Virus record (IMG/VR): IMGVR_UViG_3300044628_000433 | Span: 1-64,000 of that record | Strand: one strand, 5' to 3' | DNA: 64,000 nucleotides | DNA from: a virus | In this document: positions 7,031 through 63,346 of the stretch, piece by piece | Layout of the letters: each line of letters opens with the position of its first letter | Position numbering within the stretch: the first letter of the stretch is position 1 | The notes under the pieces: model-generated | The model's database searches: none | What the model was told of the DNA's origin: nothing | Seen by the model: the letters and a program-made list of their open reading frames with translations, nothing else | Translations under genes and position numbers: made by a program

Positions 7031-7042
7031 GCAAACTAACAA

Positions 7043-7073: not shown

Positions 7074-7082
7074 GGAGGATAA

Positions 7083-8073: not shown

Positions 8074-8255
8074 AACGCGCAAACATTAATGTAACTCTTC
8101 TAAAGGAACAGATCGAACTAATTGAGAGTGGTCTGCCATACAGTTTGCTTACCGACGAGGAAGCAAGGATTGATGGCCTGTTAGATTTTCTACACGATAT
8201 TGCAACAGGCGAGATCGTGTGCTATAAGAAAGAACTAAATGGAAACCTTGAATGA
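8070..8255 (+). CDS. Small hypothetical protein, 61 aa
   Basis: Overlaps the deaminase stop by 4 bases (ATGA) and the primase-helicase start by 17. Predicted two-helix protein with the segment LLTDEEARIDGLLDFLHD. Not recognised. The tight coupling on both sides is the reason to accept it. Confidence 0.65.
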   Translation: MKRANINVTLLKEQIELIESGLPYSLLTDEEARIDGLLDFLHDIATGEIVCYKKELNGNLE

Positions 8256-9972: not shown

Positions 9973-10186
9973 AGTCATGCGAATGATGGCTTGGGATATG
10001 TATGCCGCGTCGATCTTGGGTATGTCTTTACATCCCGGCACAACACGGGATGCAGCTAAACCTAAAACCATAAAAGAGATTTGTAACCTTGCCGACGAGA
10101 TGTTGGCAGAAAGAGATACTAGATTTAATGCGCTTGGTTATCGACATCGAATCGAATGCCTTGATGGAGTTGACCCTCGACAATAA
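9959..10186 (+). CDS. Small hypothetical protein, 75 aa
   Basis: Start at the ATG at 9959 ([12 protein letters not shown]), overlapping the primase-helicase end by 14 bases and the DNA polymerase start by 59. Methionine-rich helical N-terminus and an [16 protein letters not shown] helix. Unrecognised. It fills the only gap between gp4-like and gp5-like genes. The ribosome-binding site is weak, so the exact start is uncertain. Confidence 0.6.
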
Positions 10187-11834: not shown

Positions 11835-12324
11835 CGCATCTGTCGGATTCTACGACTTCAGTAAGATTCAGGGTAGGTATTTGGGATTGTTGGCTAAGAT
11901 TCTTAATGGTAGCCATGTAACACACGCTGGCCTCATCCTTGAGGCTGGCGGCAAGGAGTACCACTTTGTAATCTGTAGTGCAAAACAAGAATGGGATGGT
12001 CGTATAGTACCAGTCAGTAAACTATACAATCTAGAAACCTTACAAGGTTTGGGTGCTGTCCTCATCGGTCGAACAGAAATGTGGATCACTGAGGATATGT
12101 CACTTGAGGATGCTATAACGGGGGCATCATCATATACCGACAGTAATGCTTGGGATATGATTTTCCATTACTTTGTTGGGCGATTCCTTAGTCTAACAAG
12201 ACCACGGAATTGCACAACACACGTTTGTTCTTTCTTTAATATCGAAGACTGCTTTACACCAGCAGAGTTGTATAGGAGATTCAATGATAACCATCTTATT
12301 GTCCGGCCAAGCGAGAGTCGGTAA
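11806..12324 (+). CDS. Hypothetical protein, possible permuted papain-fold (NlpC/P60-like) hydrolase
   Basis: I choose the TTG at 11806, 7 bases after GGAG; an earlier ATG at 11743 lies deep inside the polymerase gene. The 172-residue product has VTHAGLIL (candidate catalytic His, about residue 40) and, about 85 residues later, NCTTHVCSFF (candidate Cys). A His-before-Cys order with H-x-G and N-C-x-x motifs is what circularly permuted papain-fold amidases show. That makes it the best, still weak, candidate for a peptidoglycan amidase in a genome where I find no obvious endolysin; T7 also keeps its amidase in the replication region. No signal peptide. Confidence 0.5.
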   Translation: METTGHKLTNASVGFYDFSKIQGRYLGLLAKILNGSHVTHAGLILEAGGKEYHFVICSAKQEWDGRIVPVSKLYNLETLQGLGAVLIGRTEMWITEDMSLEDAITGASSYTDSNAWDMIFHYFVGRFLSLTRPRNCTTHVCSFFNIEDCFTPAELYRRFNDNHLIVRPSESR

Positions 12325-48400: not shown

Positions 48401-51400
48401 ACTCAGCCTATCAGGGCTTGTTTAAGCGATTGCCAAAGGAACAACGCCTTGCCATTGGTAAGGAAATCCTTGGAGAGATGGCCTTTAACGACTATCTTGC
48501 TAAGAAAGAAATTGAATTCGAAAAGGCTAAGCCAGTTGTAGATAAGCTTGCTGAAGCTGCGGCAACTAAGCCAGTTACTGTAACAAGTGTTGTGAATGAG
48601 ATCTATGAAAAGGTCAACAACGCAACACGTAAGGTCATTAAGGAAGCTATTGCTTCTGGTATGAGCAGAGAATCTGTTCTCACCTTCCTAAAGGACGAAG
48701 AAGCAAAGATTGGTACGGTTACATCTATTGATGCCCGTCCAGCTAATAAGCTTACAAAGCCAACAAAGCTTACAGACGAAGAGCTTGCAAAGTTTGCTGC
48801 AATTGAATCCCCATTCATCAGCGTTGTAGACGATGTAAAGGTTAAGTTTATTGATGCCGCTTTCAAGACTGAAGAGAGTAAGTTATTCTTCAGTAAGGAA
48901 GATCTACAGGATGAGATTAAGAGACGCGCTGCGTCAAAGGTCAGTAAGACTGAAACTGATATCGGTATTTCATCTGAGCTTAAGGCAGACCTTGAAGAAC
49001 TTCTTGGTCCAGGAACCTTTGTCGATTCTGCTGGCATGAAGGTAGAACTAACCCCAACTGAAACTGTTGTTGCTACTAAGGTTGCAACCGTAGTTGAAAC
49101 GGCTAAGGTAGACAAGGAACACGCTACGGCTGTCATTGCTGCTTTGGAAGAAGGTAGAACACTAGATGCTGTAGAAGCAAAACGTGCGCCTATCGTTACT
49201 CCAGAGGTTATCAATGTTGAAGAAACTCCAGTAAGCGTTGAGACTGAGCTTGTTGCTTTGGCTGCCATCAGTACTGAAGCTTCGGCTACAGCTGACAGCC
49301 TAAGTATTCCTGCAGCAAAGAAGGCCGAAGTTAAGACTGTTGTTGCTGCAGCTGTTGCAAATCCAAGTAGAGCCAAGTCTTTGCTTGAGAAGTATACTAC
49401 TACAAAGCTTGAGGATGTTGCTGGTGTTTCTGCTAAAGCGGAAGCTACAACCACAAGACAGCTTCCAAGCGATCTAGTTAAGCAATTCTTTGAAGCTGAA
49501 TTACGCGCTCAAATCTCTAGACACACCATCGAAGGAATTATGGGTCTAGACGATAAGAACTTTAGTCGTTTCCTAGAATTAGAAAAACTAGCTGAAAAGT
49601 TTGAAGGTCCGCTTGATGCTTTAGTTAGAGAACCAACCCCAGAAAATCTACAAGCAACAGCTAATACCATTAACTGGTCAATGGAAGACTTGAAGGTTTA
49701 CGTCAGCGGTGCATTGCACAAGCGTAACGGTTCTTTGATTGCAGAGTTTGTTGGAGCTAAGAAATTTGTAGAGCGGAACATTGATACAATTAAAGAAACT
49801 AGAAAATATATTGAGGATAAGAAGTCGGCTTATGATGCAGCTAGAGCTGTACCTGAGGCAAATAGATCTAAGGCTCAAGAAGACTTAATTAAGAAGTATG
49901 ATAAAGCCAAGGGAACAGTCAGTCAATTTAATAACTCCATAGAGAGACTAAAGATTGGTGTACTTGGTAACACCGTACTCGAAGTAGTGCCACAGAAAAT
50001 TAGTAAAGCTAAGGCTTATCTAGATAAGGGTGAGTCTATTCAAACAAAGTGGTTGCAACTACAGAGCCTTGGCGCAACGGTTCAAGACTTATTATTTAAA
50101 AATATGATTGAAGCCGATCCAATTACTATTCTCAAAGCAATTGAGAAAAACATTGATCGTCTTGCTGAATTGGTTGAAACAGACGGAGAAGAAGTAGGTT
50201 TTCCGGACTGGAGAGAACTACCTAAGATTGAACTGTGGGCTAATGGATACATGAAATCAAAGGCTGCTTCCTCCTTTGTAAAGAAGATTATTCGTAATCT
50301 TGAATTAAATGCAAAGCGAAGATTGGAAGGAACCAAGAAGAAGGTTGGAAGTGAAGAGGTAGTGGGTGCTAGTGGTGATGCGGTAAACGTATTAGAGGGA
50401 TCGCAAAAGGTTGAAGGGGTGTACACAGACGATGAGAAAAAGGACTTCTACGTAAAGCAACAAGCTGAAAGCGAAGCTCTTAGAAATCTAGCTACACTGT
50501 TTCATGCTCACCTAGTTGATATTGGTAAGACCGAACTCGCTGCTGTCTTTATGGCAAGACGTGAGGGTATATTACAAAAGGCTTCTGATATTGATAACAC
50601 AGCACGACTTCTAGAGAATTACGGAATTCAACTAACCGTAAATTCTGTTGAGAATCGTATCTCAGATCTTCGTAATGAACTTACAACATTTGTTGATGGT
50701 CTAGCAGAGGACGAAGCTAAGGCAATTCGAAAGCTTCTTGATCTTGAGTTTAAGCCTAAGAAACAAAAAACTCTTGCTCAACGCATCTCTACAGAAGACA
50801 TGGAAGATCTATCAGAACGCTTAATGTCAGCTGGACCACTTGATGTCATTCGCGCTCCTGATTATTTAATCAGAGCTGCTCAAGAATCTTCCAGTGATCT
50901 CTATAGAAGGATTCTTTCAGGTGAACTAGAAAATGGTGTTCAAGTTCTTGAAGAACTAGCGAACAATCCGCAATCAAAGTATAAGACACTTGCTGGTCAA
51001 ATCCTAAACGAACATAGAGACTATTTAGAAACGGTCGGTGTTTGGGTAGCAAAGCTTGACGATAATACTGAGGGTCTATACACCTATGACAACATCTTCC
51101 TAAATGTTAAGGAAGGTACGGTCAATGTACCAGCCCTCATTCACGAAGTCATTCACGCCATAACAACGAAGGAAATAGACGAAGCTGGCTTTACTCAAAT
51201 AGAAGGACGTGGACACGTTGCCTATCTAGAAGCACTTCGCAATAGTGTTCAATCCGGTGTTGATCTAAACGGTAAAAAACTAAAGGCAAGTGTCAAGTCA
51301 ATCGCTGCTAGTTATCTAGCAACAGTTGATTGGATTGATCGTACTCCTGAAGCTTTACAGTTATTGGGTTCAGACTATAAAGAAAAGTTTGTTGGTCGAG

Positions 51401-54400
51401 CTGATGCTGTAGAGTTTCCCACAACAACCCACTATGCTTTGATCAATCTTCACGAATTCATTGCAAACACATTGACTGATTCTGATGTTCTCGCTTTCTT
51501 TGCTGGGGCTAAGGCTGCTAGTGGAGCAGCTAAAACAAGACCAGTTAAGGAAATGCTTAATGGTATTTCTAGGTCTATCTTTCCTAGAGCAACCGAAGAA
51601 CAGATAAAGAACGTTGATAAAACACTACAAGAAACTATTGTTTCAAATCTTGTAACTGGTGTGGTCAAGAGTAAGGTAGAACCAGTTGATCAAATGGGCA
51701 TGGTATTAATGCCTGAGCCTACTTATGTTCCCTTTAGATTAGTCGGTACTGAGATTCAAATTCCTGAGGTTGTTAGACTTGGAGATGAAGCTGAACTTCG
51801 TTCTGCTCTCAAATCTGCTAAGGGTAGGGTCTATGCTCAACTTAACAAGATTACGGAAGAAGAAGCTAAGGGTGGGGATTGGACTTTAGATGGTTCTATT
51901 CTAGAAAACGAATATGGTGAAGAATTCGAAGCTTTTGGTTTCGAGGACGGCACAATTGGTGCATTGCTTGCACACAACGAACTTGCGTATAAGGGCGCTA
52001 CTAAGTATTTTGAAACACCTGATAAAGTCTTTATTAAGATAAAAACAAACGAAAAACCGTATTCTGACTCAGTAACACAAGCTTTACAACTTATTCTAGA
52101 CGGTAGCTTATACGATCTTTTTCCAAAAATGGATTTACAGCAATTGTCGTATGAAAAGTATTCTAATAGTGACTTTGCAAAGCTACCCATTAATGAGCAA
52201 TTAAAAACGGCTCAGTACGCATATACAAAAATTACAACTATTCAAAACTTACTACCATACAAACATAAGGTTTTTGAGACACAGAGCAATAATGCAAAAA
52301 CATTATTAGAAGCAGTTACTCAATTAAAATCAGCGTTAGACTTGGCTTTTCCACCCGAACCTACAATATCAAAGGTAGGTGATAGTAAGTATTTTAAGAA
52401 GCTTACTGAGTTACCTACTATCTTCGATGAGTGGACGGTTGGAATAACCCATAAAGACTTATCAACAAGTGATGGTTATTACTTTAAGGTTAAAGATTAT
52501 CAGAAAGATAATGCATTTATATTAAGTGCGCTTCTTACTCAAAAGCCACTAGAGTGGGCTGAAGACAATGGTGAGTTTATGCTTAAGTATACACCAACAA
52601 TTAGCGAACTTTCAACAGCTCAACAAACATTGCTGTACTTTTTACTTGGGGAAGTACCAAGTTCTGATAAAGTTCCAATATGGGAACCAACAGTTTCTAT
52701 ACTCTACGATGTTCACTTAGAAAATTATTTTAAGGAATTTGGTGTGGATGGTATAAAAGCTGTACTTAAGTCTGAAATAGCACTTGACCTTATTCCAGTA
52801 GATATTGATTCTCAAGTACTAATAGATATTAAAACAAATCTAAAGAAGTTAAGCAACTATTGGTATGATGAATTAGACAAAAAGGGTGTTAATGTAGAAG
52901 ACGATCTTTCTGCTGTTCCTACAGATGATGTACAATTTCTTTTAGATAACTATACCGTAGCAAAACTTGAAGTTGATTCGGTGTTTCCAGAAAACGCCAC
53001 GATTATTGGTCCACAACTTGGATCTAATCCAGGACATCAAGTTGAAATTAATGGTAGCAAGTATTATCTAAAGGCAGCAAAGAGCAAGCGGCATGCTAAT
53101 ATGGAAAGAGCAGCTCAGTTGCTCTATCGTATGCTTGGTCACGAATCCTTGGTATCTGAATTTACAGATGCTTCAAATCTTGGTTCCGAGTTTAAAACAT
53201 CCATTTTGACTCCCTGGGTAACAACAACCAAGTTTGATTTTGATAATAAGGACCACGCTGCAAAAGCAAAGTTGCTATACATTCCATCAGCTTGGCTTGC
53301 AAATTGGGATGTCTTTGGTCAAACCTATGACAATGTTTCTGCCGAAGGTGTGATTCTTGATGCCGGAGGATCGCTTGTTTATAGAGCTAGGGGTGGAGAG
53401 AAGGACTTTTCAAATACCTCTGTTAAGGAATTAGACTCGCTACGAGACCTAAGTAAAAACTTCACAGCAGCTAATATCTTTATGGAGCTAACACCAGAGG
53501 AAATTAAAAGTCAGATTGCTAATTTAGAAGCAACGGCATCAAATGAACAAATTAGAGATGTTGTATTCAGTGTGTTTGATCTTTCAGATCCCTCTGAAAA
53601 AGCAGACGCTGACAATCTAGTTAAAACATTGATTGCTAGAAAAAACATTATTGTTGCATCTTTAAAGGAATTAGGTTCTATTGAGAGCAGAATGCCAACA
53701 GAGCTTCGTCGTTTTATCAAAATGCCAACTACGGCAGCCGAAGAAGATATCTTTTACATAAGAGAAGCAGCCAAAACCTTTGAAAACGCATCGCTAGAGG
53801 ATAAGCAAAAAGCATTGGAATTTATGCACACCGTTCTAGCCAATGCTGACATGAGTGGAGAACTTCTTCGTTCTAATTTCTATAATGCTTATACAGAGTT
53901 TCGCTTAAAGTTATTGGGTGGTACTCAACTTAATAGAAGAGAACTTATTTCTAAATTCTTTACCAATGATAGTGGTAGAGATATTGCTATTAGAGATGAA
54001 CTTGGAATGCCAATTACGTTTTATCGTGGAACTAATAGGCCAGATGTTGATGCTCAAAACGGCGATGAAGTAAGTAAAGGTTCTTGGTGGGGAACCGATC
54101 TAAACGTTGCTAGAGATTATGGCGGCGGAAGATCTATTATGAGTGCTTATGCTGCCGTTCCACCAGAACGTATTAAGGTTGTTAAGCTTCGTGAAATGAC
54201 ACATTGGTCACACGTAAAGAAATCAGATATCCTTGATCCAGAAGTTGTAAAGTATTTAGAAGATCGAAACTTTAACTTTGGTGGTAAAGTAGATGACATT
54301 GCATTTGCTTACTTAGATCTTGTTGAAGATAAATATGATGCTGTACGATTGCTCGATGTTAAGGATTATGCAAAGCTTGGTTCAAAGAAAATTCCACACG

Positions 54401-57400
54401 ATCAGTGGGTATTCAGACCAGATAAGCAACTCTTAAAGAATCGCAATGCTCTTGAGTTTAAGAAGACAGGATCACAAAATCTTCTATCGCAAAAGCGAGC
54501 TGTGCAAATCACAAGAGATATCATTGATGTCGCTAAGTCGGTTGGTGCAGACACGAAGGAACTAGAAGCAAAGCTTGCTGAGCTTGTTGACTCCGCTGAG
54601 GTTCGTAGACGTAATCTACTAGCTGCTGGCTTACATGAAGAAATGGAACCAGAAGATCTAGAGATTATCAATAGTATGATCAAGGGAACGAAGGCGTTTA
54701 GTCAGCCAGCCGTTGATCACCTCACACGAAGAACCAAGCCATCAGCTACCGTGGCTGCGGCTTCTAGAATTAAGTTCTCAGGTAAGAACTACAGAGACTT
54801 GACAGATGACGAAAGACGATCTTTCGTTAGTGACGTATTGCTTCCAACAGTAGAAGAAAAGCTTGGCAATAGAAACCGCAGTGCTGGTATCTATTCATTG
54901 ATTACCGACTCCAAGGTTGGTAAGGGCTTTAACTCTCTCGTTGGTGGTGGTGCCGCTTACGGCGATACTGCCGATGCTCAGTCAATGATGCTACAGTTCT
55001 TCTCAAAGATTTACGATCCTCTTATGGATCTTAGAGATGGTGAGCTATCAGGTACATTCGATCTCTTCTCCGTTGACATGGTTAACGCAGAAACAAATAA
55101 CATGTACAGTGCAGCTGGTCTCTTGGATATCCAGAGAAAGATTACAGCTCAGGTCACAAAGACCGCAGAGTTGGAACAGCTATACGAAACAGCTTGGCTA
55201 TACCTTGCTGATCTAGAGAGCTTACCAAGTAATGCCGTCCACAGAGAATTGATTGTGGAACTCATTAAGGGTGTCCACAAGTACAATACCTTGGTATCTG
55301 GCTTACTTGAGAAGTATGGTACGTTGGTTACGCCAATGAAGCCAACAGAGTACGGTACAATCCACAAGGTCAACATGTTAGCCTTCGAGCAACAAGACCA
55401 GTTCGTTGATGCCCTTGTTAAGCATGCCTTGGCAAAGGAACGAGAAAGCAAGGATCTATCCATCATTACGTTGGATGCCTTGGGCTGGGTAAAGCTTACA
55501 AGAGATTCGGTTTCTGACGATATCGTATCTGTTGAGGTTAAGGAAGGTTCACCTCTTGGTTATGAACCAGCTGTCTACAAGTATTCTGAATTCAAGAATA
55601 TGGCTAAGAAAGCCTCACTTGGTAAGGATGCGTTGACTATCTATGAGGATGCCTTAGTGTCTTCTAGAAACTACGTCAACTGGGATATCTATCGGTCACG
55701 TGGTGATAACTATACGGCTCTTAGACATACGATGACCGTAGCTAAGAACCGATACCTCAACATCGACTCTCCAGAATCCCGTGGCGGTAAGCCACGTACT
55801 GAAGGTGTTGGTGGTGGACGTGAAATGGATATTACCAGAATCTTGTCCCACAACGATATCGCAAAGAATCCAGAACTTGCCAAGTACTTTGATAAGGATA
55901 TCTACGGATTGATCTATCAACAGTTACGAAGCAGTGTAACCGATGCCATTATGACCAAGTATATCACAGATATGTTTGGTGTTAAGATGTCATTCTTGGA
56001 TCTCGTTGAGGTTTCTAGAAAGCACGGTGAGGCAAGCAGAGGTCAACTCGCTAAGACTGAACAGGATTCAGTAAACCGTGGTTATGACAGAATTAAGGAT
56101 ATCTGGGAATCAAATACCGGAAAGTTAATGGCAAGTAGAGACGGTCTAGATCGTCACTATAGGTCATTGCTTGAATCTGGCTCTAGACCCCTTGTCCTTT
56201 CAGCAAGTGGTCTCAGAGCGGCTTTAACCTCAACTGGTGAAACCGCAAGAGCTATCCTCGCTAGTAACCATAACCGTGGTATGCTACGTCAAGTAATTCC
56301 TAACTTCATCCAGACCCTAAAGCTATTTAGTCGGGATAAGAGACAGACCATCCAGCAAGTAGCATCCGCTACTCACTGGCTCCGTGGTCTATCTTCTGAC
56401 CACCTATTGTTAAGAGCTGAGATGAACCCAAACAATCCATTCGGTGGAACAATCATGGGTTCTAAGCAGGGTGGCTGGTTTAAGAGTTGGGCTGCATCTT
56501 GGGCAGGAGCTAAGGAACGAAACAAGTTAGAAGACTCTATTGTTGGTAAGGCAGCTAACTATCTGTCTATCCCAGCAAGTAGACTAGGCGCTCCTCTTGC
56601 TTTCGTAAACGATGTAACGACTACATTGCATGTCCAGAATATGCAATACAACCTTACAACAAACTCTTCAAAGTTCATGGCTCTTGCTAAAGCATTGAAG
56701 ACATCTAACCCAGAATCATTGTCTGACTTTGCATCTCTAGCTAAAAAGTGTGGTCTATCCCCCAAGGAAGCTATAGATCTATCTGCTCTGGGTTTATTAG
56801 ACCCAGCTAGAATCCAAGTTATGATTGATGCAGCTAAGGACCAACGTAACTATTCCGAAGGTCTATTGGATATCCAACGTCTATTCCTATGGGCTGATGG
56901 AGATCCCATCAGGATAGATACCATTAACCGTATGGGTGCCTTGGTAAACGCTACTACAAGACACACCAATACTGATCCTACCTTATTGGATCTACGGATT
57001 AATCAATCCCCCTATGCTAGATCTATGGGTGTATTCATGCAGTTCTTGCTTAGTCACTCTACCCAAGAAATAGGTAGACGTAGACGTTATACAACTACTG
57101 CATACTCTAAGCACCTCGCTGGTCTAGTTATGATGGAATCTATTGCCTATAGCTTGGCTAGACCCAAGGATGACGATGATGATAGCTGGATCTGGGAAGA
57201 CGCTAAGGAGAAACCAATCCAAACGGTAATTAAGGTAGGTACCTCTCTCCCTCTCTTGGGAAGCTATCAGTACCTATCTGCTCTTATCCGTATGGGTCTA
57301 CTAGAAACCCACTCTCAGATTACTGGAGAGAAGTCAGATGAACGATATAGAATTCCTGATCTTTACTCTGGTCCTTCAGAGAACGTACCAAAGAAAGCTT

Positions 57401-57426
57401 TGGATATGATCAAGGATCTATTGTAA
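45403..57426 (+). CDS. Giant multidomain virion/ejection protein, 4,007 aa (polyvalent-type)
   Basis: Single uninterrupted frame, last gene of the late block, in the place of T7 gp16 (1,318 aa). Visible pieces in order: Gly/Ala-rich hydrophobic segments at about 248-410, as expected for a membrane-crossing ejection protein; HEMSH at 872-876; HEVIH at 1914-1918; a kinase-like segment with YYLKAAK (Lys2557), NWD (2634-2636), YDN (2642-2644) and LDAGG (2652-2656); an ADP-ribosyltransferase-like segment opening ITFYRGTN (Arg2875), with WWGTDLNVARDYGGG near 2895-2909 and closing DQWVFRPDK; a C-terminal helical domain with FMQFLLSHSTQEIGRR near 3878. No transglycosylase motif found. This architecture recalls polyvalent proteins that phages inject to act on the host. 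Individual domain calls are by motif only. Confidence 0.8.
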   Translation: MNNDLDRLFEENSKPLPSKSPTVNFTNPTSMYSGQTPDMGEQQIKNEKISLGLLSPSFLNGRWNLTESGLTKEEVGDTALSFTIGEGSKGWGERSIQKAYRMVDQFENKGDAMFTTDNRETHHWEQFVEGINFFNIFGENETFRRADEVKKILSTVDPEWTYEKQLSALTEWQESNPEVNDFVAQAGINIQDYVLETRNQQAFIFNINEAVQQARLNIGMQRFEKDNGTLSKLGNSLIEGIKDPLILRDMALTSVATLGLGTVAGLAGVSARALSGSVAAGVNSSRALRGLNLVRQAANTAALATGPMTGLIEGPAYAAIRAVVPSAGRSAVSTLSARGLALALEGGVAGAVSSLADQKADNEWRSLVFADTEKALKYNLGETALAALTGSLGAVGVASAVRFGLGSIGDYKYYKTGDWDGFRRQIANSMDTWATTKDGDIVWGNTLSDGRGIFFGDTVDKFMKSYDGRDFTNVMLNGSRLFGKFNPRIAGKMNLDVKRVMPVIEEFEKATGVAGEAAMLSVDGVDPETRGIFNQLVNESNLADADLTIDDVKAVLVDYNTKQQPQPPTATGRLLTEAPVATQQVEVARQLKRLVAAKSVDRRLEQIGLSSATVLNNAEATLGRSINLSSDADFQNFITAARYEAASVDESQVVNTFKRIVTGDFGGGRVIPKEVVDSIFVAAFGDKPIVVTATGSNKNFAVVVDPKNKDVFATKRTLEKGDDGQLSIKLRADDPKSPFFSKDVLTVDTDTLQAKLVEVNEKLNKAWNDVKTAKIKETIEKVKKTKVKEELVKTFAEGTSVTVDSIKKIFDLTKEEATVAKIIMDSLGYDGDSNLLRIASLVADDRNAEIFFEGNTALIRATKSSDVGTVTHEMSHYLQVMILDELTPDARHAIGITDEIWEKFKDWVGYTGTEWTEKAAEKFANGMSQYVRRVMSGDGRAPKTQVQRLFHRIGDHLGDLGQRFKSQEALEAGMIMSKEAEDVFEALFNRSNSKIGELFDSAYQGLFKRLPKEQRLAIGKEILGEMAFNDYLAKKEIEFEKAKPVVDKLAEAAATKPVTVTSVVNEIYEKVNNATRKVIKEAIASGMSRESVLTFLKDEEAKIGTVTSIDARPANKLTKPTKLTDEELAKFAAIESPFISVVDDVKVKFIDAAFKTEESKLFFSKEDLQDEIKRRAASKVSKTETDIGISSELKADLEELLGPGTFVDSAGMKVELTPTETVVATKVATVVETAKVDKEHATAVIAALEEGRTLDAVEAKRAPIVTPEVINVEETPVSVETELVALAAISTEASATADSLSIPAAKKAEVKTVVAAAVANPSRAKSLLEKYTTTKLEDVAGVSAKAEATTTRQLPSDLVKQFFEAELRAQISRHTIEGIMGLDDKNFSRFLELEKLAEKFEGPLDALVREPTPENLQATANTINWSMEDLKVYVSGALHKRNGSLIAEFVGAKKFVERNIDTIKETRKYIEDKKSAYDAARAVPEANRSKAQEDLIKKYDKAKGTVSQFNNSIERLKIGVLGNTVLEVVPQKISKAKAYLDKGESIQTKWLQLQSLGATVQDLLFKNMIEADPITILKAIEKNIDRLAELVETDGEEVGFPDWRELPKIELWANGYMKSKAASSFVKKIIRNLELNAKRRLEGTKKKVGSEEVVGASGDAVNVLEGSQKVEGVYTDDEKKDFYVKQQAESEALRNLATLFHAHLVDIGKTELAAVFMARREGILQKASDIDNTARLLENYGIQLTVNSVENRISDLRNELTTFVDGLAEDEAKAIRKLLDLEFKPKKQKTLAQRISTEDMEDLSERLMSAGPLDVIRAPDYLIRAAQESSSDLYRRILSGELENGVQVLEELANNPQSKYKTLAGQILNEHRDYLETVGVWVAKLDDNTEGLYTYDNIFLNVKEGTVNVPALIHEVIHAITTKEIDEAGFTQIEGRGHVAYLEALRNSVQSGVDLNGKKLKASVKSIAASYLATVDWIDRTPEALQLLGSDYKEKFVGRADAVEFPTTTHYALINLHEFIANTLTDSDVLAFFAGAKAASGAAKTRPVKEMLNGISRSIFPRATEEQIKNVDKTLQETIVSNLVTGVVKSKVEPVDQMGMVLMPEPTYVPFRLVGTEIQIPEVVRLGDEAELRSALKSAKGRVYAQLNKITEEEAKGGDWTLDGSILENEYGEEFEAFGFEDGTIGALLAHNELAYKGATKYFETPDKVFIKIKTNEKPYSDSVTQALQLILDGSLYDLFPKMDLQQLSYEKYSNSDFAKLPINEQLKTAQYAYTKITTIQNLLPYKHKVFETQSNNAKTLLEAVTQLKSALDLAFPPEPTISKVGDSKYFKKLTELPTIFDEWTVGITHKDLSTSDGYYFKVKDYQKDNAFILSALLTQKPLEWAEDNGEFMLKYTPTISELSTAQQTLLYFLLGEVPSSDKVPIWEPTVSILYDVHLENYFKEFGVDGIKAVLKSEIALDLIPVDIDSQVLIDIKTNLKKLSNYWYDELDKKGVNVEDDLSAVPTDDVQFLLDNYTVAKLEVDSVFPENATIIGPQLGSNPGHQVEINGSKYYLKAAKSKRHANMERAAQLLYRMLGHESLVSEFTDASNLGSEFKTSILTPWVTTTKFDFDNKDHAAKAKLLYIPSAWLANWDVFGQTYDNVSAEGVILDAGGSLVYRARGGEKDFSNTSVKELDSLRDLSKNFTAANIFMELTPEEIKSQIANLEATASNEQIRDVVFSVFDLSDPSEKADADNLVKTLIARKNIIVASLKELGSIESRMPTELRRFIKMPTTAAEEDIFYIREAAKTFENASLEDKQKALEFMHTVLANADMSGELLRSNFYNAYTEFRLKLLGGTQLNRRELISKFFTNDSGRDIAIRDELGMPITFYRGTNRPDVDAQNGDEVSKGSWWGTDLNVARDYGGGRSIMSAYAAVPPERIKVVKLREMTHWSHVKKSDILDPEVVKYLEDRNFNFGGKVDDIAFAYLDLVEDKYDAVRLLDVKDYAKLGSKKIPHDQWVFRPDKQLLKNRNALEFKKTGSQNLLSQKRAVQITRDIIDVAKSVGADTKELEAKLAELVDSAEVRRRNLLAAGLHEEMEPEDLEIINSMIKGTKAFSQPAVDHLTRRTKPSATVAAASRIKFSGKNYRDLTDDERRSFVSDVLLPTVEEKLGNRNRSAGIYSLITDSKVGKGFNSLVGGGAAYGDTADAQSMMLQFFSKIYDPLMDLRDGELSGTFDLFSVDMVNAETNNMYSAAGLLDIQRKITAQVTKTAELEQLYETAWLYLADLESLPSNAVHRELIVELIKGVHKYNTLVSGLLEKYGTLVTPMKPTEYGTIHKVNMLAFEQQDQFVDALVKHALAKERESKDLSIITLDALGWVKLTRDSVSDDIVSVEVKEGSPLGYEPAVYKYSEFKNMAKKASLGKDALTIYEDALVSSRNYVNWDIYRSRGDNYTALRHTMTVAKNRYLNIDSPESRGGKPRTEGVGGGREMDITRILSHNDIAKNPELAKYFDKDIYGLIYQQLRSSVTDAIMTKYITDMFGVKMSFLDLVEVSRKHGEASRGQLAKTEQDSVNRGYDRIKDIWESNTGKLMASRDGLDRHYRSLLESGSRPLVLSASGLRAALTSTGETARAILASNHNRGMLRQVIPNFIQTLKLFSRDKRQTIQQVASATHWLRGLSSDHLLLRAEMNPNNPFGGTIMGSKQGGWFKSWAASWAGAKERNKLEDSIVGKAANYLSIPASRLGAPLAFVNDVTTTLHVQNMQYNLTTNSSKFMALAKALKTSNPESLSDFASLAKKCGLSPKEAIDLSALGLLDPARIQVMIDAAKDQRNYSEGLLDIQRLFLWADGDPIRIDTINRMGALVNATTRHTNTDPTLLDLRINQSPYARSMGVFMQFLLSHSTQEIGRRRRYTTTAYSKHLAGLVMMESIAYSLARPKDDDDDSWIWEDAKEKPIQTVIKVGTSLPLLGSYQYLSALIRMGLLETHSQITGEKSDERYRIPDLYSGPSENVPKKALDMIKDLL

Positions 57427-57504: not shown

Positions 57505-57550
57505 AGGCTTATAGGAGGTTTATTGGGGTGGGGTATTTACCTAGACGAGC

Positions 57551-57573
57551 AGTCCCTGATTTGGTGCTAGGGA
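57551..57573 (+). promoter_or_regulatory. Phage RNA polymerase promoter-like motif, copy before the early block
   Basis: AGTCCCTGA-TTTGGT-GCTAGGGA. It has the same 23-base layout as the copies at 14049 and 63324; this copy has the most perfect TCCCT...AGGGA symmetry. It points into the gene-free block and early genes, so the transcript would start with that structured region. Confidence 0.65.
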
Positions 57574-58401
57574 ACAACCTAGCTGTGATGGAACACAATA
57601 AAACAAGAGCGGACTCTCCACTAGGGGAGAGTCTAGGAAAGATAGTAAGGGGAGTATCTAGGGATAACGTAAGGAAGTAACGTAGGATTGTCTTAGAATA
57701 ATAACGTTACATAAACCCATAACATAAAACACATAGGGAAGTCCTAAGGATATACCCCATACATAACCATTTCACTTTGGAGTTGATCGTTTGGGGACAA
57801 CGCCCGATAGCTCCAAAGCCGCCTCAGGTACATTCCCCCGTCTGTATCCTGAGTCTATCTATCCCGCTTCCCCTTAACGGGGGAGGTGGGGTTTTCTAAG
57901 AAAACGTTTTAGGTATCGAAAATTTTAGGAGGGTACCCCCTTCCCCCACCGGGTATTGGCGTCCCCCTCTACCCCCCCGGCCCTGCGGGAAATTTACCCG
58001 GCCTGCGGCTGCTTACCCCCCCTCGGGACAGTCTAGTATCAGCGATCTTCCGCAGAGAGTGACCCTTGGGGTGTTACTGCGGAGGGGATCGCAAGGATAG
58101 CCGCGCCTACTTTGTAGGTTTTATGTTACGGGCTACCTTCCCAAACCTTCGGTTTGAAAGTTACTGAAGCCTAACATGTCGTGACGAGCGGCGATAGGGT
58201 ATGATCCTGCGATACGTTCGCAGGGGTGAATCATCCCGCGTCAAGTCTCAAGTGCGATCTCGGAGACGAGTGAGGCTAGGTAACGAATAAGATCGAAGGC
58301 AGTCTACCGCGTAGGGTGTCATCCTACGTTGAAATTCCCGCAACAAAGTCTTTGTTTCAAACATTGACGCGGGAACGTTGGAAACGACGTTCCTGCGATT
58401 C

Positions 58402-58455: not shown

Positions 58456-58845
58456 ATGTCTACCTTCAACATGCCGAATGTCGAATCTTTCCGCCGTGTG
58501 TTTCTCCCTACGTTTGTTTCATACCTTCAGGAGAACGGCAAGTTCTCTGTTAGTGGTGACTTGAAGTTGTCGTGTGTGAATTCGTTGGGTGATGTTCCCG
58601 TCTTTGTTTCGGGAACTAAATTGACCTTCCGCAGTGTGGTCGCAGGGAAGAATGGCGTCGAATGTGCGTCGCAAGTCAATTGGCGCGAAGTCGATACTGC
58701 GGGAACGTTGGCGCAAGTCGCACGGGACTATCTCGTGTCCGAATTGGAGCGTGAAGTTCCCGAATGGTTCAATAACGAGCGCAAGGTCTATAAGTCTGGC
58801 CGTGGTGCTGTTAGTGTGGACGTGCTTGAATCGCTCGGCCTCTAA
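58456..58845 (+). CDS. First early gene, unknown 129-aa protein
   Basis: I take the ATG at 58456 (MSTFNMPNVESFRR) behind ACGGAG; a TTG at 58378 lies before the leader hairpin. The protein is a mix of strands and helices with a C-terminal WFNNERKVYKSGRGAVSVDV region. First gene after the presumed genome end, the usual site of anti-host proteins, but I recognise nothing in it. A conserved-loop hairpin begins 21 bases after the stop. Confidence 0.7.
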   Translation: MSTFNMPNVESFRRVFLPTFVSYLQENGKFSVSGDLKLSCVNSLGDVPVFVSGTKLTFRSVVAGKNGVECASQVNWREVDTAGTLAQVARDYLVSELEREVPEWFNNERKVYKSGRGAVSVDVLESLGL

Positions 58846-58866
58846 TCGCCAGCGTGTGTTCTCTTC

Positions 58867-58901
58867 AGGGTGTCGGGGGTGAAATTATCCCCCGATACTC
58901 T
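58867..58901 (+). promoter_or_regulatory. Conserved-loop hairpin 1
   Basis: AGGGTGTCGGGGG (58867-58879) pairs with CCCCCGATACTCT (58889-58901) over 13 positions including G:T pairs; loop TGAAATTAT. Followed by TTCC. Member of a family of four in the early region whose stems differ and whose loop begins TGAAA. Confidence 0.75.
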
Positions 58902-58940
58902 TTCCGTCTAAATTGTTCGCCCCTAACGTTGGGAGTCAAT

Positions 58941-59144
58941 ATGTCCAAAGTCAATCCAAAGGTACGGGATGTCATGGCACCGATTGTGCAAGCGCAAGTA
59001 AAGGCGGCGTGTGAACTTCGCACGGAACGTGCCTTGCGTGAAGCATTGGATAGTGTTGTCAAGTGGTCTGGACAATCGCGGACAAAGTGTTTCGCGGCAT
59101 TGTGTGTCAAGTATCCGCAATTCAAACAATTAGGGAGTCTCTAA
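58941..59144 (+). CDS. Small basic early protein, 67 aa
   Basis: ATG at 58941 behind GGGAG. Helical, basic, with KVNPKVRDVMAPIVQAQVKAA and a VKWSGQSRTKCFAAL end resembling a short DNA-binding helix pair. Unrecognised. Its stop overlaps the next start by one base. Confidence 0.65.
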   Translation: MSKVNPKVRDVMAPIVQAQVKAACELRTERALREALDSVVKWSGQSRTKCFAALCVKYPQFKQLGSL

Positions 59145-59464
59145 TGGTCAAGCCAATTCACTACCTTCGAACGTGTGTAGGGAATGTGTCTCGGATTGTT
59201 CCTGCGGAGTATGTCCACAATCGGGAACAATGCGAAACGTGCGGGGATTATATCTCCGTCAAGTGTGTGGTGGCATTGGTTTGGGCCGATGTCGATAGGC
59301 CAATTGAGTGGGGACGTGTGAATCCCGCAGGTGTCGGGATTAGTTGGGAGGATATTGAGTTGGCCGACTTTGTTCACACAAAGTGTCCTGCTCCCGTGTG
59401 GATTGTTCCACACGGATTCAACGTCGAAGATATCGACGCACACTGGGGCGTAGATTGTGACTAA
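59144..59464 (+). CDS. Early protein with a CxxC pair, 106 aa
   Basis: ATG at 59144 behind GGGAG. Contains CETCGDYISVKC (three cysteines, possible zinc or disulfide), then an acidic WEDIELADFVHTKC segment and the end WGVDCD. With Cys near the N-terminus, six cysteines in all, unusual for a phage this poor in Cys. Function unknown. Followed by conserved-loop hairpin 2. Confidence 0.65.
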   Translation: MVKPIHYLRTCVGNVSRIVPAEYVHNREQCETCGDYISVKCVVALVWADVDRPIEWGRVNPAGVGISWEDIELADFVHTKCPAPVWIVPHGFNVEDIDAHWGVDCD

Positions 59465-59467
59465 TCA

Positions 59468-59500
59468 GGAATGTTCGGGTGAAAGTATCCCGAACGTTTC
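59468..59500 (+). promoter_or_regulatory. Conserved-loop hairpin 2
   Basis: GGAATGTTCGGG (59468-59479) pairs with CCCGAACGTTTC (59489-59500) over 12 positions; loop TGAAAGTAT. Begins 3 bases after a stop codon and is followed by TTTC. Confidence 0.75.
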
Positions 59501-59538
59501 TTTCATCGTGTGTCTTCTCGCAACTTTGGAGTCAAACA

Positions 59539-59637
59539 ATGTACGTGACTGAATTGTTCTTCTACTGTGCCGTGGCAATGTTTGTGACGGGATGTATCTA
59601 CGTGGCTGGCAACATGATCTCTAACCTTGAGGATTGA
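59539..59637 (+). CDS. Tiny early membrane protein, 32 aa
   Basis: ATG at 59539 behind TTTGGAG. Sequence from MYVTELFFY continues as one hydrophobic helix (about residues 5-24) and ends ISNLED. Too short for most gene finders, but it has a good ribosome-binding site and fills the space between hairpin 2 and the next gene. Possibly an early membrane-acting host modulator; no family known. Confidence 0.5.
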   Translation: MYVTELFFYCAVAMFVTGCIYVAGNMISNLED

Positions 59638-59639
59638 TA

Positions 59640-59966
59640 ATGCGTCAAATTGAACGTGCAATGTGCATCGCAATTCGTTCGAACAAATCTTTCAAGCGTG
59701 GAAATACGGAAGTGTTGGTGACAAACAACGGTGCGGAGGTGTTCCTGCACGGGAATAGTATCGCACGATATCACCGTCCGTCACACACTATGTTTGTGAC
59801 GTTGTGTGGGTGGAATACTAGCACAACAAAGTCACGAATCAATGCCCTGCTTGATTCGTTCGGGACTGGTGTACGAGTGTACACTAAGAAGTTTGAGCCA
59901 CACTATATGGTGTGTGGTCAATCGTTTGAATTTGAGAGCGAAGGACATATCTTCCTCTGTAACTAA
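59640..59966 (+). CDS. Early unknown protein, 108 aa
   Basis: ATG at 59640 after GAGG. Basic beta-rich protein with histidine- and asparagine-rich loops (FLHGNSIARYHRPSHT). It resembles small phage proteins that annotate as hypothetical in many genomes; no motif. Followed by hairpin 3 after 4 bases. Confidence 0.65.
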   Translation: MRQIERAMCIAIRSNKSFKRGNTEVLVTNNGAEVFLHGNSIARYHRPSHTMFVTLCGWNTSTTKSRINALLDSFGTGVRVYTKKFEPHYMVCGQSFEFESEGHIFLCN

Positions 59967-59970
59967 TCTC

Positions 59971-60002
59971 GGAATGTGTGGGTGAAATACCCCACACCTT
60001 CC
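59971..60002 (+). promoter_or_regulatory. Conserved-loop hairpin 3
   Basis: GGAATGTGTGGG (59971-59982) pairs with CCCACACCTTCC (59991-60002), with one T-C mismatch; loop TGAAATAC. Same outer GGAA as hairpin 2, different inner stem. Followed by TTTA. Confidence 0.75.
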
Positions 60003-60191
60003 TTTACTCTGTCTGTAGACACATAGTTAGGTCACAGATTATCAAGGGAAGATAATCTAGTGGCAACTCATACGTCTTCCCAACGTATGTGGTATTATGT
60101 CGGGGGTTAGATTCCCCTGCGAGATTTCCCGAAATGTATGGGTGAAATATCCGATACGTTTCATCGTGTGTTTCTTTACAAGGAGTAAGAA
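60003..60191 (+). other. Gene-free segment with three more hairpins and hairpin 4
   Basis: Holds AGATTATC/GATAATCT (60036-60058), CATACGT/ACGTATG (60069-60089, seven-base loop), GGGG/CCCC (60103-60117) and conserved-loop hairpin 4. The middle hairpins look like anticodon and T arms, but there is no matching acceptor stem. No open frame. Probably a structured leader for the gene at 60192. Confidence 0.55.
60131..60162 (+). promoter_or_regulatory. Conserved-loop hairpin 4
   Basis: GAAATGTATGGG (60131-60142) pairs with CCGATACGTTTC (60151-60162), with one G-G mismatch; loop TGAAATAT. This copy is not next to a stop codon but 30 bases before the ATG at 60192. Confidence 0.7.
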
Positions 60192-60530
60192 ATGTCCAAG
60201 ACCGAACAAGAACTTCGTGAGTGGTGTGAAGGTGTTGAGGCAGATAACGATACTCTTCGTCGTGAGGTTGCACGTCTCAGCAAGGAGCGGGATGAACTCA
60301 AGCAACTTGTGACGGATTCAATGCGCCTTACGGAACGTTGTGCCTTGAAGTGTGAGGAACTCAACAGGGAGGCAAAGGAACTTCAACGTATGTACTGCCA
60401 CGCGGCAGCGTTAATTGGCCGATGTACCCCAAATCAGATTGCGAAGCAACAAGGTTGGGACTGCTTCTACAATGATTTAGTTGACGCAAACGCAAACAAC
60501 CAAGACTTCCGTACTACGGATATGGGCTAA
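60192..60530 (+). CDS. Early coiled-coil protein, 112 aa
   Basis: ATG after CAAGGAG. About 75 residues of heptad-patterned, Glu/Arg-rich coiled coil, then a C-terminal segment with CTPNQIAKQQGWDCFYND. Probably dimeric; function unknown. Similar coiled-coil proteins with a short C-terminal domain are common in phage early regions. Confidence 0.7.
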   Translation: MSKTEQELREWCEGVEADNDTLRREVARLSKERDELKQLVTDSMRLTERCALKCEELNREAKELQRMYCHAAALIGRCTPNQIAKQQGWDCFYNDLVDANANNQDFRTTDMG

Positions 60531-60542
60531 GGAGATAAACCA

Positions 60543-61016
60543 ATGGGCTACTACGTTTCGACAGAACGTTCAGACATCTCAATCTGTGACGAAACTTTGT
60601 TCGTTGAATGTGTCAAGCGTCTGTTCTCTCCTGAGAATATCGCCAAGTATGGTGAGACGTATTCGTGGGGAGATGATGGTAGTGTTGTGAAGTCTCTCAA
60701 GTTCATTGACCCCGACGATGTGCGTATGGCGTTCATCAGAGATTCTCTCGCCAGAATCTTTGATCTCTTTGGGTATGTCGTTAATGAGTGTGGAGATGGT
60801 TCGATTCAGATTAGTAAGGACGGCAAGTGGGGAGATGATGAATTGTTCTTCTCAACTATTGCCCCTGCTATTGGTGACGGTAGTTATGTTGATATCGTGG
60901 GTGAGTGTGGCGAACGTTGGCGATACGAATACCATGACGGTGTTTGTTATCTCCGTGAATGCAACGAAGTTCGGTGGATATTCGATCCCGCAATCAAACT
61001 GAAAGGACTGCAATGA
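60543..61016 (+). CDS. Early acidic protein, 157 aa
   Basis: ATG after AAGGAG. Alternating strands and turns rich in Asp, Gly and Trp (MGYYVSTERSDI start, a YSWGDDGSVV repeat-like motif and KWGDDELFF). The MGYY start and GDDG turns recall a widespread phage/actinobacterial protein of unknown function. Overlaps the next gene by 4 bases. Confidence 0.7.
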   Translation: MGYYVSTERSDISICDETLFVECVKRLFSPENIAKYGETYSWGDDGSVVKSLKFIDPDDVRMAFIRDSLARIFDLFGYVVNECGDGSIQISKDGKWGDDELFFSTIAPAIGDGSYVDIVGECGERWRYEYHDGVCYLRECNEVRWIFDPAIKLKGLQ

Positions 61017-61318
61017 ACAAGTACACGATCTACATTCCGTTCTACATTGCCGACGAAACTGGCAACCCCAGTGTGTGTGCCAAACAGATTGGCCTGTCGA
61101 TTGTCGAGGAGATTGTCAACGAAACTGGAGGTGCAACTGTCACCGAAGGTAAGGGGTACTGGAGTAACGGGAAGCACATCGTCAATGAAAGTGTGTTCAT
61201 TGTCGAAACATGTGCTGAAACTCTCAACACACAACGTATTGCAGCAAGTATCAAGTTGCAACTGAACCAACAAAGTGTTCTCATTCTTCGCCAAGAAGTG
61301 GAGTCTTTCTTCCTATGA
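61013..61318 (+). CDS. Early hypothetical protein, 101 aa
   Basis: ATG at 61013 overlaps the previous stop by 4 bases. Starts MNKYTIYIPFYIADE, alpha/beta, with a GYWSNGKHIVNESVFIVET strand-turn-strand. No motif. It begins a run of tightly overlapping small genes. Confidence 0.65.
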   Translation: MNKYTIYIPFYIADETGNPSVCAKQIGLSIVEEIVNETGGATVTEGKGYWSNGKHIVNESVFIVETCAETLNTQRIAASIKLQLNQQSVLILRQEVESFFL

Positions 61319-61488
61319 ATACAACGACATACATTTCGGACAACCTTGTTCAGTCAGCAATGTTCGGGATTCGTAACGAGCAGGAGTATAACTGGTGGCA
61401 GTTTGTCCAGTCTAACTTCTGGTTGAACGATACCGAATCTTCCATTCTCGCAGATCTCATTGAGGAGTACAACAATGAAAGCGTATAA
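61315..61488 (+). CDS. Early hypothetical protein, 57 aa
   Basis: ATG at 61315 overlaps the preceding stop by 4 bases and the frame runs to a TAA at 61486-61488, 14 bases into the next gene. Trp/Asn-rich helix (YNWWQFVQSNFWLND) and an acidic C-terminal helix. Without it there would be a 156-base hole in an otherwise overlapping gene train. Confidence 0.65.
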   Translation: MNTTTYISDNLVQSAMFGIRNEQEYNWWQFVQSNFWLNDTESSILADLIEEYNNESV

Positions 61489-61759
61489 TATCTACACCAG
61501 TAATCGTGAATCAATCGCTGTGGATTTGTCTGTGATGTCTGATGATGGTCGAGACTATCAAGGTCTATTGACTGTATATCTTTCACGGTGCTACCGTAAG
61601 AGCGGTATGACGTGGGACGTATCTTTCGTCCGCTATAAGGATGGAACTGAACATCGACATGAACCAACTCTGAAGATTGAATTCTTCGAGCAACTGTGGG
61701 TAGCCGCAATGTTTGAACCCGAACGTCTTCTTCAATACTACACGGAGGTCACTAAGTGA
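61475..61759 (+). CDS. Early hypothetical protein, 94 aa
   Basis: ATG at 61475 behind GAGGAG. Starts MKAYNIYTSNRESIAVD; beta-rich first half, helix KIEFFEQLWVAAMF near the end. Unrecognised; overlaps its downstream neighbour by 4 bases. Confidence 0.65.
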   Translation: MKAYNIYTSNRESIAVDLSVMSDDGRDYQGLLTVYLSRCYRKSGMTWDVSFVRYKDGTEHRHEPTLKIEFFEQLWVAAMFEPERLLQYYTEVTK

Positions 61760-62001
61760 ATCACTATATCGGTCTGCTCTATGTCGAATCTAGTTTGCAG
61801 GATTTGAAGCATGCTTGTGAGGATCTCGGTATTATCCCACAGAATGTGGAGATTGAAGAGGGTGTGTGTTTCTTCGATGTCCACCTTCTCACTTCGGATA
61901 ACTACGAAGATCCTGAGATGTACTTCGATACCTTGGCACGTGACTTGTCCGAATACATGAACCGCGAAGTTGTCCTCGAAGATATCGAGGAGGAGAACTA
62001 A
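61756..62001 (+). CDS. Early acidic protein, 81 aa
   Basis: GTG start behind CGGAGG. Strongly acidic (two clusters, VEIEEGV and VVLEDIEEEN), ferredoxin-like alternation of strands and helices. The charge could suit a DNA- or RNA-mimicking inhibitor, though less extreme than the protein at 63125. Confidence 0.65.
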   Translation: MNHYIGLLYVESSLQDLKHACEDLGIIPQNVEIEEGVCFFDVHLLTSDNYEDPEMYFDTLARDLSEYMNREVVLEDIEEEN

Positions 62002-62145
62002 ATGACCAACGAGAAGATTGATATTACATTGTTGCTCAAGCGTCTTGAAACTGATTACCCTCTCAACTACAATGTGAATGTGTTGCGAGAAGCGGCACGG
62101 GTTATTCGAGAACTCCAACTGGAGAAGAAGAATGGACAACAATAA
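62002..62145 (+). CDS. Early hypothetical protein, 47 aa
   Basis: ATG at 62002 right after the previous stop, behind GGAGGAG. Two predicted helices (IDITLLLKRLETD and NVLREAARVIRELQLEKK) and a QQ end. It overlaps the next gene by 14 bases. Similar helical mini-proteins are frequent in phages; function unknown. Confidence 0.6.
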   Translation: MTNEKIDITLLLKRLETDYPLNYNVNVLREAARVIRELQLEKKNGQQ

Positions 62146-62266
62146 CTATGTATCGTTCGATGGTAAGTGGTGGAATGTCTTTGTTGCAGGGGAGTGTGTT
62201 GACGGGTTTCGAGAAGAGGATGATGCTCGTCTCTTTCTTAGCCATGTGTTGAGGTACGGTCAATGA
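62132..62266 (+). CDS. Early hypothetical protein, 44 aa
   Basis: ATG at 62132 behind GGAGAAG. Begins MDNNNYVSFDGKWWNVF, a small beta sheet plus a helix DARLFLSHVLRY. Overlaps neighbours by 14 and 4 bases. Not recognised. Confidence 0.55.
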   Translation: MDNNNYVSFDGKWWNVFVAGECVDGFREEDDARLFLSHVLRYGQ

Positions 62267-62355
62267 ACGATCCTATTCCGTGGGGACAAATCGTGTTGAT
62301 CTTTGTGATTGTTGCTATCGGTATCTACTTCAGCAAGGATGATAACAATGGATAA
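62263..62355 (+). CDS. Tiny early membrane protein, 30 aa
   Basis: ATG at 62263 overlaps the preceding stop by 4 bases; one hydrophobic helix (WGQIVLIFVIVAIGIYF) ends in SKDDNNG. Overlaps the next start by 8 bases. The coupling on both sides is the support. Confidence 0.5.
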   Translation: MNDPIPWGQIVLIFVIVAIGIYFSKDDNNG

Positions 62356-62707
62356 AGATGTCAAGAAGCTTTGGATTGATGCACTTCGTTCGGGCAAGTA
62401 TCAGCAGGGAAAGTTTGCTCTGAACTGTCAGGGTCGCTTCTGCTGTCTCGGTGTGTTGTGTGATCTGTACGATCAGCAACGATGTGGTGATACAATGTGG
62501 TACCAACACGACAACGGAGTGAAGGGTATTGGTGGAAGTCTTCACCATCTTCCCGTTCCAGTTCGTGAGTGGGCTGATATTGAATCGTATGATCCTCCCG
62601 TTATTTATGACGGTCGGACTATGGTTATCAGCGATCTGAATGACCATGAGAGACTTTCGTTTGAAGATCTTGCAAACATCATTGAACAACAAGGAGATCA
62701 TTTCTAA
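62348..62707 (+). CDS. Early conserved-type protein, 119 aa
   Basis: ATG at 62348. WIDALRSGKYQQGKFAL, a cysteine patch RFCCLGVLCDLY and the end LNDHERLSFEDLANIIE form a pattern I recognise from many phage and prophage proteins of unknown function. Cys residues may bind metal. Shares a base with the next start. Confidence 0.75.
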   Translation: MDKDVKKLWIDALRSGKYQQGKFALNCQGRFCCLGVLCDLYDQQRCGDTMWYQHDNGVKGIGGSLHHLPVPVREWADIESYDPPVIYDGRTMVISDLNDHERLSFEDLANIIEQQGDHF

Positions 62708-63135
62708 TGTCTAAGTATGTTGATTCGTTCTTTACCGTTCTGAAACTCGACTATAATGGTGGCTGGGAATTGGTTGACTCTATCAAGGGTCTTATCAGCG
62801 ATGAGGTCAATGATCTCTCCATGAGTGTTGACGATATCAAGAAGGAACTTGAGGACTCTGTTAGTCAGGCTGTGTCTAGTGAGGTTAGTAGCACGATTGA
62901 TGACGCGATTTATGACTTGCGTGGCGACCTTGAGAACACAATGACGCAGATGGTGAATGATTGTGTTGACTCAGTTGTGTGCCAGTCTGATACGCTTGAG
63001 CGGGCTGCGGAAAGTGCGGTCGATGAGTACCTTGACAACAACCTTGACTTCTTTGTGCGACGTTACTTGGAGTCTGAGCGTGGTAAGCAATGGCTCAAGG
63101 ATGTTCTCAAGGAAGGAGATGCTAATGTTCAATGA
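62707..63135 (+). CDS. Early acidic helical protein, 142 aa
   Basis: ATG immediately after the previous stop. Acidic and Ser-rich, with a long coiled-coil middle (KKELEDSVSQAVSSEVSS) and a C-terminal RRYLESERGKQWLKDVL helix. Unrecognised. Confidence 0.7.
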   Translation: MSKYVDSFFTVLKLDYNGGWELVDSIKGLISDEVNDLSMSVDDIKKELEDSVSQAVSSEVSSTIDDAIYDLRGDLENTMTQMVNDCVDSVVCQSDTLERAAESAVDEYLDNNLDFFVRRYLESERGKQWLKDVLKEGDANVQ

Positions 63136-63310
63136 CGAAGAGTTTATGAACGACGATACTGGTCGAGACGAATGGGATGGAGGAGTGTGGGATATGTTTA
63201 TTGACGAATATCATTGCACGGATTACTGGGTAGATACTGATGCACTGATGGACGAAGGTGCATTCGAAGATGACATTGAGGTGGAGGAAGAAGACGGTGA
63301 TTGTGGATAA
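63125..63310 (+). CDS. Extremely acidic early protein, 61 aa (DNA-mimic candidate)
   Basis: ATG at 63125 behind AAGGAG, overlapping the previous gene by 11 bases. 25 of 61 residues are Asp or Glu against one Arg and one His, spread evenly rather than in a tail, together with four Trp. Charge pattern and early position resemble Ocr of T7 and other nucleic-acid mimics that block restriction or host polymerase. No homology to Ocr is visible. Last early gene before the polymerase. Confidence 0.7.
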   Translation: MFNDEEFMNDDTGRDEWDGGVWDMFIDEYHCTDYWVDTDALMDEGAFEDDIEVEEEDGDCG

Positions 63311-63323
63311 CTTGTGAACCACC

Positions 63324-63346
63324 AGTCCCTGATTCCGTGCTAGGAA
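63324..63346 (+). promoter_or_regulatory. Phage RNA polymerase promoter-like motif, copy before the polymerase gene
   Basis: AGTCCCTGA-TTCCGT-GCTAGGAA, 47 bases before the polymerase ATG. A TCCAA/TTGGA hairpin (63347-63359) follows at once. Together with the copies at 57551 and 14049 it would let the polymerase amplify its own gene. Confidence 0.65.

Follow-up and report, generated by a model that had tools for sequence, protein, structure and literature searches.

In phage T7, RNase III sites in the early mRNA define and protect the 3' ends of upstream RNAs. Lambda boxB carries a GAARA loop closed by a U-A pair, and REP/BIME elements occur in both orientations with a 5' GTAG-like tetranucleotide. 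The PeSLs of T4-type phages (Arbiol 2010; Comeau 2014), as presented in PMC4503421, are composite promoter-terminator motifs. We compared these systems with a group of hairpins in an uncultured phage. The DNA analyzed, referred to here as the window, is a stretch of 64,000 nucleotides covering nearly all of a 64,204-bp IMG/VR virus contig. The two ends of the contig share 319 bases at 98% identity, an inexact end repeat, and the genome map is therefore circular. The phage encodes a T7-type RNA polymerase (RNAP; PF00940, phrog_414), a primase-helicase, a portal, a major capsid protein and a terminase. The RNAP gene starts at 63394 and runs on into the contig start, and the series of small genes upstream of it (58456–63300) would, by analogy with T7, be the early region. 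Directly ahead of these genes lies a 4007-amino acid protein (45403–57426) with no match in Pfam or PHROGs. The repeat CAGTCCCTGATTNNGTGCTAGG, possibly a promoter, is found at 57550–57571 before the early region and at 63323–63344 before the RNAP gene. A scan of bacterial genome contigs for relatives of the RNAP, made in search of the host, returned none.

The initial annotation had described four hairpins with stems of 11–13 bp and TGAAA loops in the early region. All four are present with the folding energies and z-scores listed in Table 1. A pattern search of the 64 kb (stem of at least 11 bp, one mismatch allowed, 8–9 nt loop of the TGAAA type) returned exactly HP1–HP4, with none on the opposite strand. 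In order-2 Markov simulations no such hairpin arose in 300 early regions, indicating that four in one stretch are not a chance occurrence; simulations of the whole 64 kb gave a mean of 0.1 and a maximum of 1. Three of the hairpins follow stop codons, as had been claimed: HP1, between genes 58456–58845 and 58941–59144, begins 21 nt past the stop codon, HP2 begins 2 nt past that of gene 59144–59464, and HP3 4 nt past that of gene 59640–59966. HP4 is found upstream of the ribosome-binding site of gene 60192–60530. A proposed weaker fifth member at 58224–58237 was discarded, as this sequence prefers another fold and is missed by both covariance models. Separately, a 13-bp hairpin with a GAAA loop but without a UUU tail occurs at 58368–58397, in the leader of the first early gene, and is also found in L008.

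Table 1. Hairpins and associated RNA features in the window and in related genomes (L-numbered contigs).
Feature	Position	Strand	Structure or score	Remarks
HP1	58867..58901	+	13 bp, loop TGAAATTAT	-23.6 kcal/mol, z -5.5
HP2	59467..59501	+	13 bp, loop TGAAAGTAT	-18.4 kcal/mol, z -3.7
HP3	59971..60002	+	11 of 12 bp paired, one mismatch, loop TGAAATAC	-17.5 kcal/mol, z -5.3
HP4	60131..60162	+	11 of 12 bp, one G.G mismatch, loop TGAAATAT	-13.9 kcal/mol, z -2.6
HP1 3' tail	58902..58906	+	TTCCG	In the 13-bp stem as drawn, the final base is the first U of UUU
Structured non-coding segment	60003..60130	+		Flanked by HP3 and HP4
Pistol ribozyme (predicted)	L286:1996-2072		60.0 bits	Between two hairpins
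Pistol ribozyme (predicted)	L322:1741-1817		57.3 bits	Between two hairpins
Pistol ribozyme (predicted)	L291:2482-2553		38.9 bits	Between two hairpins
Type II hammerhead ribozyme (predicted)	L278:1297-1364 (L266:12929-12996, minus strand)		45.6 bits (threshold 37)

Relatives of the phage were gathered through the major capsid protein and an RNAP alignment. A covariance model built from seven hairpins (R1) found copies in genomes whose RNAP is 45–80% identical. A second model (R2), built from 24 copies that match it by construction, recovers the copies found with R1. The existence of copies in relatives, on which the initial annotation had staked its reading, is confirmed by these searches, with the same hairpin present in more than ten related phages. 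On an RNAP tree of 31 rows, the hairpin with a UGARA-type loop occurs on both sides of the midpoint root, each side with 100/100 support. The distribution is uneven. L308, L310, L312 and L313 have near-identical polymerases and different sets of hairpins, so copies turn over quickly, and the near relatives L282, L318 and L323 have no detectable copy, so the element is not indispensable. Among relatives recognized by RNAP only (41–44% identity), no UGARA-type copies were found save a weak tRNA-adjacent hairpin in L342; in this group L332 and L339 carry the GAAA form described below. No copies occur in the cultured relatives, Agrobacterium phages Atu_ph03 and Alfirin and Limnohabitans phage YIMV22061. 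A DNA similarity search of the hairpin stretch against annotated phages gave no match, and no family in Rfam 15 matches the hairpin. The family is previously undescribed and covaries strongly.

Individual copies can be followed between genomes. HP1 is kept in L008 with a compensatory change from G-C to A-U. Orthologous genes (protein identities 42% and 31%) likewise flank its counterpart in G003/L271, which shares the loop core while most stem pairs differ. Several other candidates were set aside: a permissive DNA pattern for the loop was abandoned after matching viral contigs at least 120 times, apparently by chance; matches in L236 and L241 lack the stem and resemble coding sequence; and the loop of the G011 match differs. 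In distant relatives, a different hairpin, AAGTAGGCCCCGTG...GGGGCTTACTT, is conserved on the downstream side of the RNAP match (L012 near 13437, L016 near 11140, L021 near 13658 and others). In G005, a third hairpin (L234:1842-1880, minus strand) is only half present: its 5' arm and loop (GTGTGCGGGTGAAACTA), without a 3' arm, pass straight into a ribosome-binding site.

To the claim that the hairpins are a functional RNA with covarying stems, the alignment lends strong support, both within the genome and across relatives. In the 24 aligned copies 91.7% of stem cells are paired, and 10 of 13 pairs show double compensatory changes. Double-change cells number 69, compared to 23.4 ± 4.1 in shuffles, and the covariation score is 0.681, compared to 0.268 when shuffled and at most 0.20 in slid controls. 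G.U cells far outnumber A.C cells in the stems (62 versus 7); therefore, the intact fold is on the coding strand. N4-type virion-polymerase promoter hairpins, suggested by the 4007-amino acid protein, were rejected, since, judging by the G.U pairs, the intact fold is on the coding rather than the template strand, and since that protein has no family match. In UGARA copies the first stem pair is a near-invariant G-C. Across 34 copies nothing is conserved in the 5' flank, and UUU(C) at the 3' foot is the sole conserved flank (T at 1.20, 2.00 and 1.81 bits, then C at 0.59, then none). The pyrimidine-rich tail noted in the initial annotation is real, while by flank information its conservation does not extend beyond UUU(C).

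The loop had been taken to be read by a protein or RNA, a reading that we regard as hypothetical. By position, the UGARA loop consists of U, G (one A), A, A or G, A, an optional base and Y-A-Y. A second form, found in relatives without the UGARA-type loop, has a 13-bp stem, a GAAA tetraloop and the same UUU(C) tail. This form is 100% paired, with 21 double-change cells versus 3.4, and a covariance model built from it (R3) picks up two UGARA copies weakly (E about 0.06). Pentaloops also occur on 13-bp stems (GAATA in L303, GGATA in L299), and both main loop forms are present in L291 and in L313. At one orthologous site the loops are UGAAAUAU and UGAAACAT in L299 and L322 and GAAA in L296; at this site L299 and L296 are 87% identical over the matched stretch. 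Additionally, the nearest relative of the window has one copy with a UAAAA loop. The exchange of UGAAAUAU for GAAA and the UAAAA copy make it less likely that the loop letters as such are the conserved feature. The constant feature is probably a stem of about 13 bp that bears a GNRA-like cap, with UUU(C) on its 3' side, and the 8–9 nt loop may be a GAAA-like turn closed by U-A.

A related possibility is that the hairpin is a protein-bound RNA operator or a boxB-like antitermination site, at which a host or phage protein would read the GNRA-like cap to control early transcription or translation. The loops do fall into few kinds, namely UGARA(N)YAY, GAAA and GNRNA pentaloops such as GAATA and GGATA, and U-GAAA-U-A is similar to the U-A closed GAARA loop of lambda boxB. 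However, the stem is 12–13 bp long, the lack of a conserved 5' flank leaves no boxA-like element, and downstream only UUU(C) is conserved. With the loop forms swapped at an orthologous site and no binding protein found, we consider an operator clearly unlikely.

The hairpins are also constrained in strand and position. In a survey of 425 kb upstream of the RNAP match and 748 kb downstream, all strict UGARA-type copies (20 of 20) were upstream of the RNAP on the sense strand, with 0 elsewhere. The first hairpin of a gap mostly begins 3–11 nt past the stop codon, the exceptions being HP1 and several copies deeper in non-coding stretches. The linker to the ribosome-binding site is often 17–39 nt, and 4 nt in L308/L313. 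From hairpin to start the gap is 16 nt in L308 and about 28–39 nt for HP1, HP2 and HP4, and these gaps contain a ribosome-binding site only. No plus-strand promoter match was found within the hairpin stretch (58850–60200).

The main rival to a role in punctuating the early transcript is that the hairpins are leaky intrinsic terminators (attenuators), in which hairpin and UUU would free part of the polymerases and so give graded early expression and the 3' ends of small RNAs. No flank is better conserved than the UUU at the 3' foot, the hairpins sit right after genes and non-coding segments, and HP3 passes a loose terminator scan. Against this, there are only three U residues: the first 8 tail bases contain on average 3.9 T in the UGARA form and 4.5 in the GAAA form (5 in some single copies), compared to 6–7 in terminator-like hairpins of the same clade, which are separate U6–7 elements located downstream of the RNAP. 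Additionally, the stem foot is often A-T rich, and in L308 the next ribosome-binding site follows after 4 nt. We regard leaky termination as a real but minority possibility.

In five genome pairs (a raw count) a segment begins or ends at a hairpin: window/L008, L302/L309, L310/L312, L286/L322 and window/L271. In L008/L009 a single chimeric hairpin, with an HP3-like 5' arm and an HP4-like 3' arm, replaces HP3, HP4 and the segment between them, and L302/L309 show the same relation of one hairpin to hairpin-segment-hairpin in the other loop class. A stretch of L312 starting at a hairpin is missing from L310, L322 differs from L286 by an extra segment immediately behind a hairpin, and G003/L271 lack HP2 together with its preceding gene (59144–59464), the two being absent as a unit. 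These segment ends, the chimeric hairpin in L008 among them, could be explained if the repeats were mainly DNA-level recombination sites, hot spots at which early cassettes come and go, and played no part as RNA; the copies within G005 can indeed be nearly identical. Yet the hairpins have a single orientation relative to transcription, are confined to the early region and lie close to stop codons, and their stems diverge freely in sequence among copies, tolerating G.U while A.C is rare. A role at the DNA level alone is thus quite improbable.

In several relatives, non-coding segments of roughly 100–600 nt are surrounded by two or three hairpins. Three such segments contain predicted pistol ribozymes (Table 1; Rfam threshold 34.5 bits), which suggests that RNA processing is in use in the hairpin region, and the early region of L278 contains a predicted hammerhead a short way upstream of a ribosome-binding site. 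From these predictions, self-cleavage of RNA appears to be used in the early region in some members. In the window, the segment between HP3 and HP4 includes a tRNA-like stretch (60054–60126) that scores 18.8 bits with the tRNA-Sec model, below the cut-off of 47, and folds into anticodon-like and T-arm-like hairpins. The segment is absent from L008/L009, and G004 has a comparable segment ahead of the orthologous gene. This neighbor, and the combination of UGARA with a 12-bp stem headed by a near-invariant G-C, would suit a mimic of the tRNA acceptor and T-arm, with a T-loop-like UGAAA turn, that is cut by RNase P or RNase Z. The 3' tail is UUUC instead of RCCA, however, and the variants with GAAA and 13 bp do not suit a T-loop, so we find such a mimic very improbable indeed.

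We tentatively favor, at slightly less than even confidence, the reading that the hairpins are intercistronic punctuation defining and protecting the 3' ends of early RNAs. They would act in cis on the early polycistronic transcript in a family of 60–68 kb T7-like phages. Each element would comprise a stem of about 13 bp and a GNRA-type cap followed by UUU(C), the cap being GAAA, GNRNA or, if its U and A pair to close a GAAA-like turn, U-GARA-(N)-Y-A-Y. The element would follow closely on a stop codon, come shortly before a ribosome-binding site or flank a small structured RNA on both sides. Most likely the transcript would be cut by a nuclease at the UUU tail or just past it, after which the hairpin may keep 3' exonucleases from degrading the messenger or small RNA upstream of it. 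Alongside the observed structure, covariation and segment ends, several features make punctuation a better fit than termination, an operator or a DNA-level role: the hairpins are placed after stop codons and fold on the sense strand, the gaps behind them are too small for a promoter, their tail is short, and ribozymes lie nearby. The UUU right behind the hairpin, which also fits a weak intrinsic terminator, counts against it. A stem of 12–13 bp is short for RNase III.

Through their recurrence, the hairpins mark points where gene and RNA cassettes come and go. It is possible, though doubtful, that the early region is built of swappable RNA cassettes (small genes, tRNA-like RNAs, ribozymes), each closed by a GNRA-capped hairpin recognized by shape by one dedicated end-making activity. 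If true, this would be an early-RNA processing system distinct from both T7 RNase III sites and T4 PeSLs. The two loop forms swapping at one orthologous site make the question of shape or sequence directly testable. The hairpins add a strongly covarying structured RNA family absent from current libraries, in a T7-like phage group found in metagenomes only, and join early mRNA organization, self-cleaving ribozymes and cassette exchange within one region.

Compared with known systems, the hairpins differ from REP/BIME elements in occurring on the sense strand only and without a conserved 5' flank. They share with the boxB of lambda nut sites a GNRA-like loop closed by U-A, but the stem is more than twice as long, there is no boxA-like flank, and many copies follow stop codons; to our knowledge, there is no N-like protein for these hairpins. 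Similar to intrinsic terminators, U residues follow the hairpin, but the tail means of 3.9–4.5 do not reach a U-rich tract (about at least 5 of 8) at a G-C rich stem foot. Like PeSLs as presented in PMC4503421, the hairpins are repeated stem-loops between small early genes, tied to the gain, loss and shuffling of early cassettes, and early-module shuffling at stem-loops is seen in the five genome pairs. The strong sigma-70-like early promoter that this account joins to the stem-loop is not found here, the gaps from hairpin to start (16 nt in L308, about 28–39 nt in the window) being too small for one. The account also gives PeSLs an effective terminator stem-loop; the hairpins here are followed by UUU(C) alone and lack a strong U tract. 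The phage, too, differs in being T7-like. T7 R sites, cut by RNase III, are likewise intercistronic early hairpins in a phage with a T7-type RNAP. The hairpins here, known from sequence alone, differ in being short and uninterrupted (12–13 bp) with a GNRA-type cap, and T7 itself has no copies (positions 1–12000: no match with R2; with R3, only one at E 2.3 on the minus strand). The hairpins thus depart from each class in at least one feature compared. In function, T7 R sites and T4 PeSLs come nearest, and by that analogy the hairpins are best read as a putative functional counterpart of the RNase III sites of T7.
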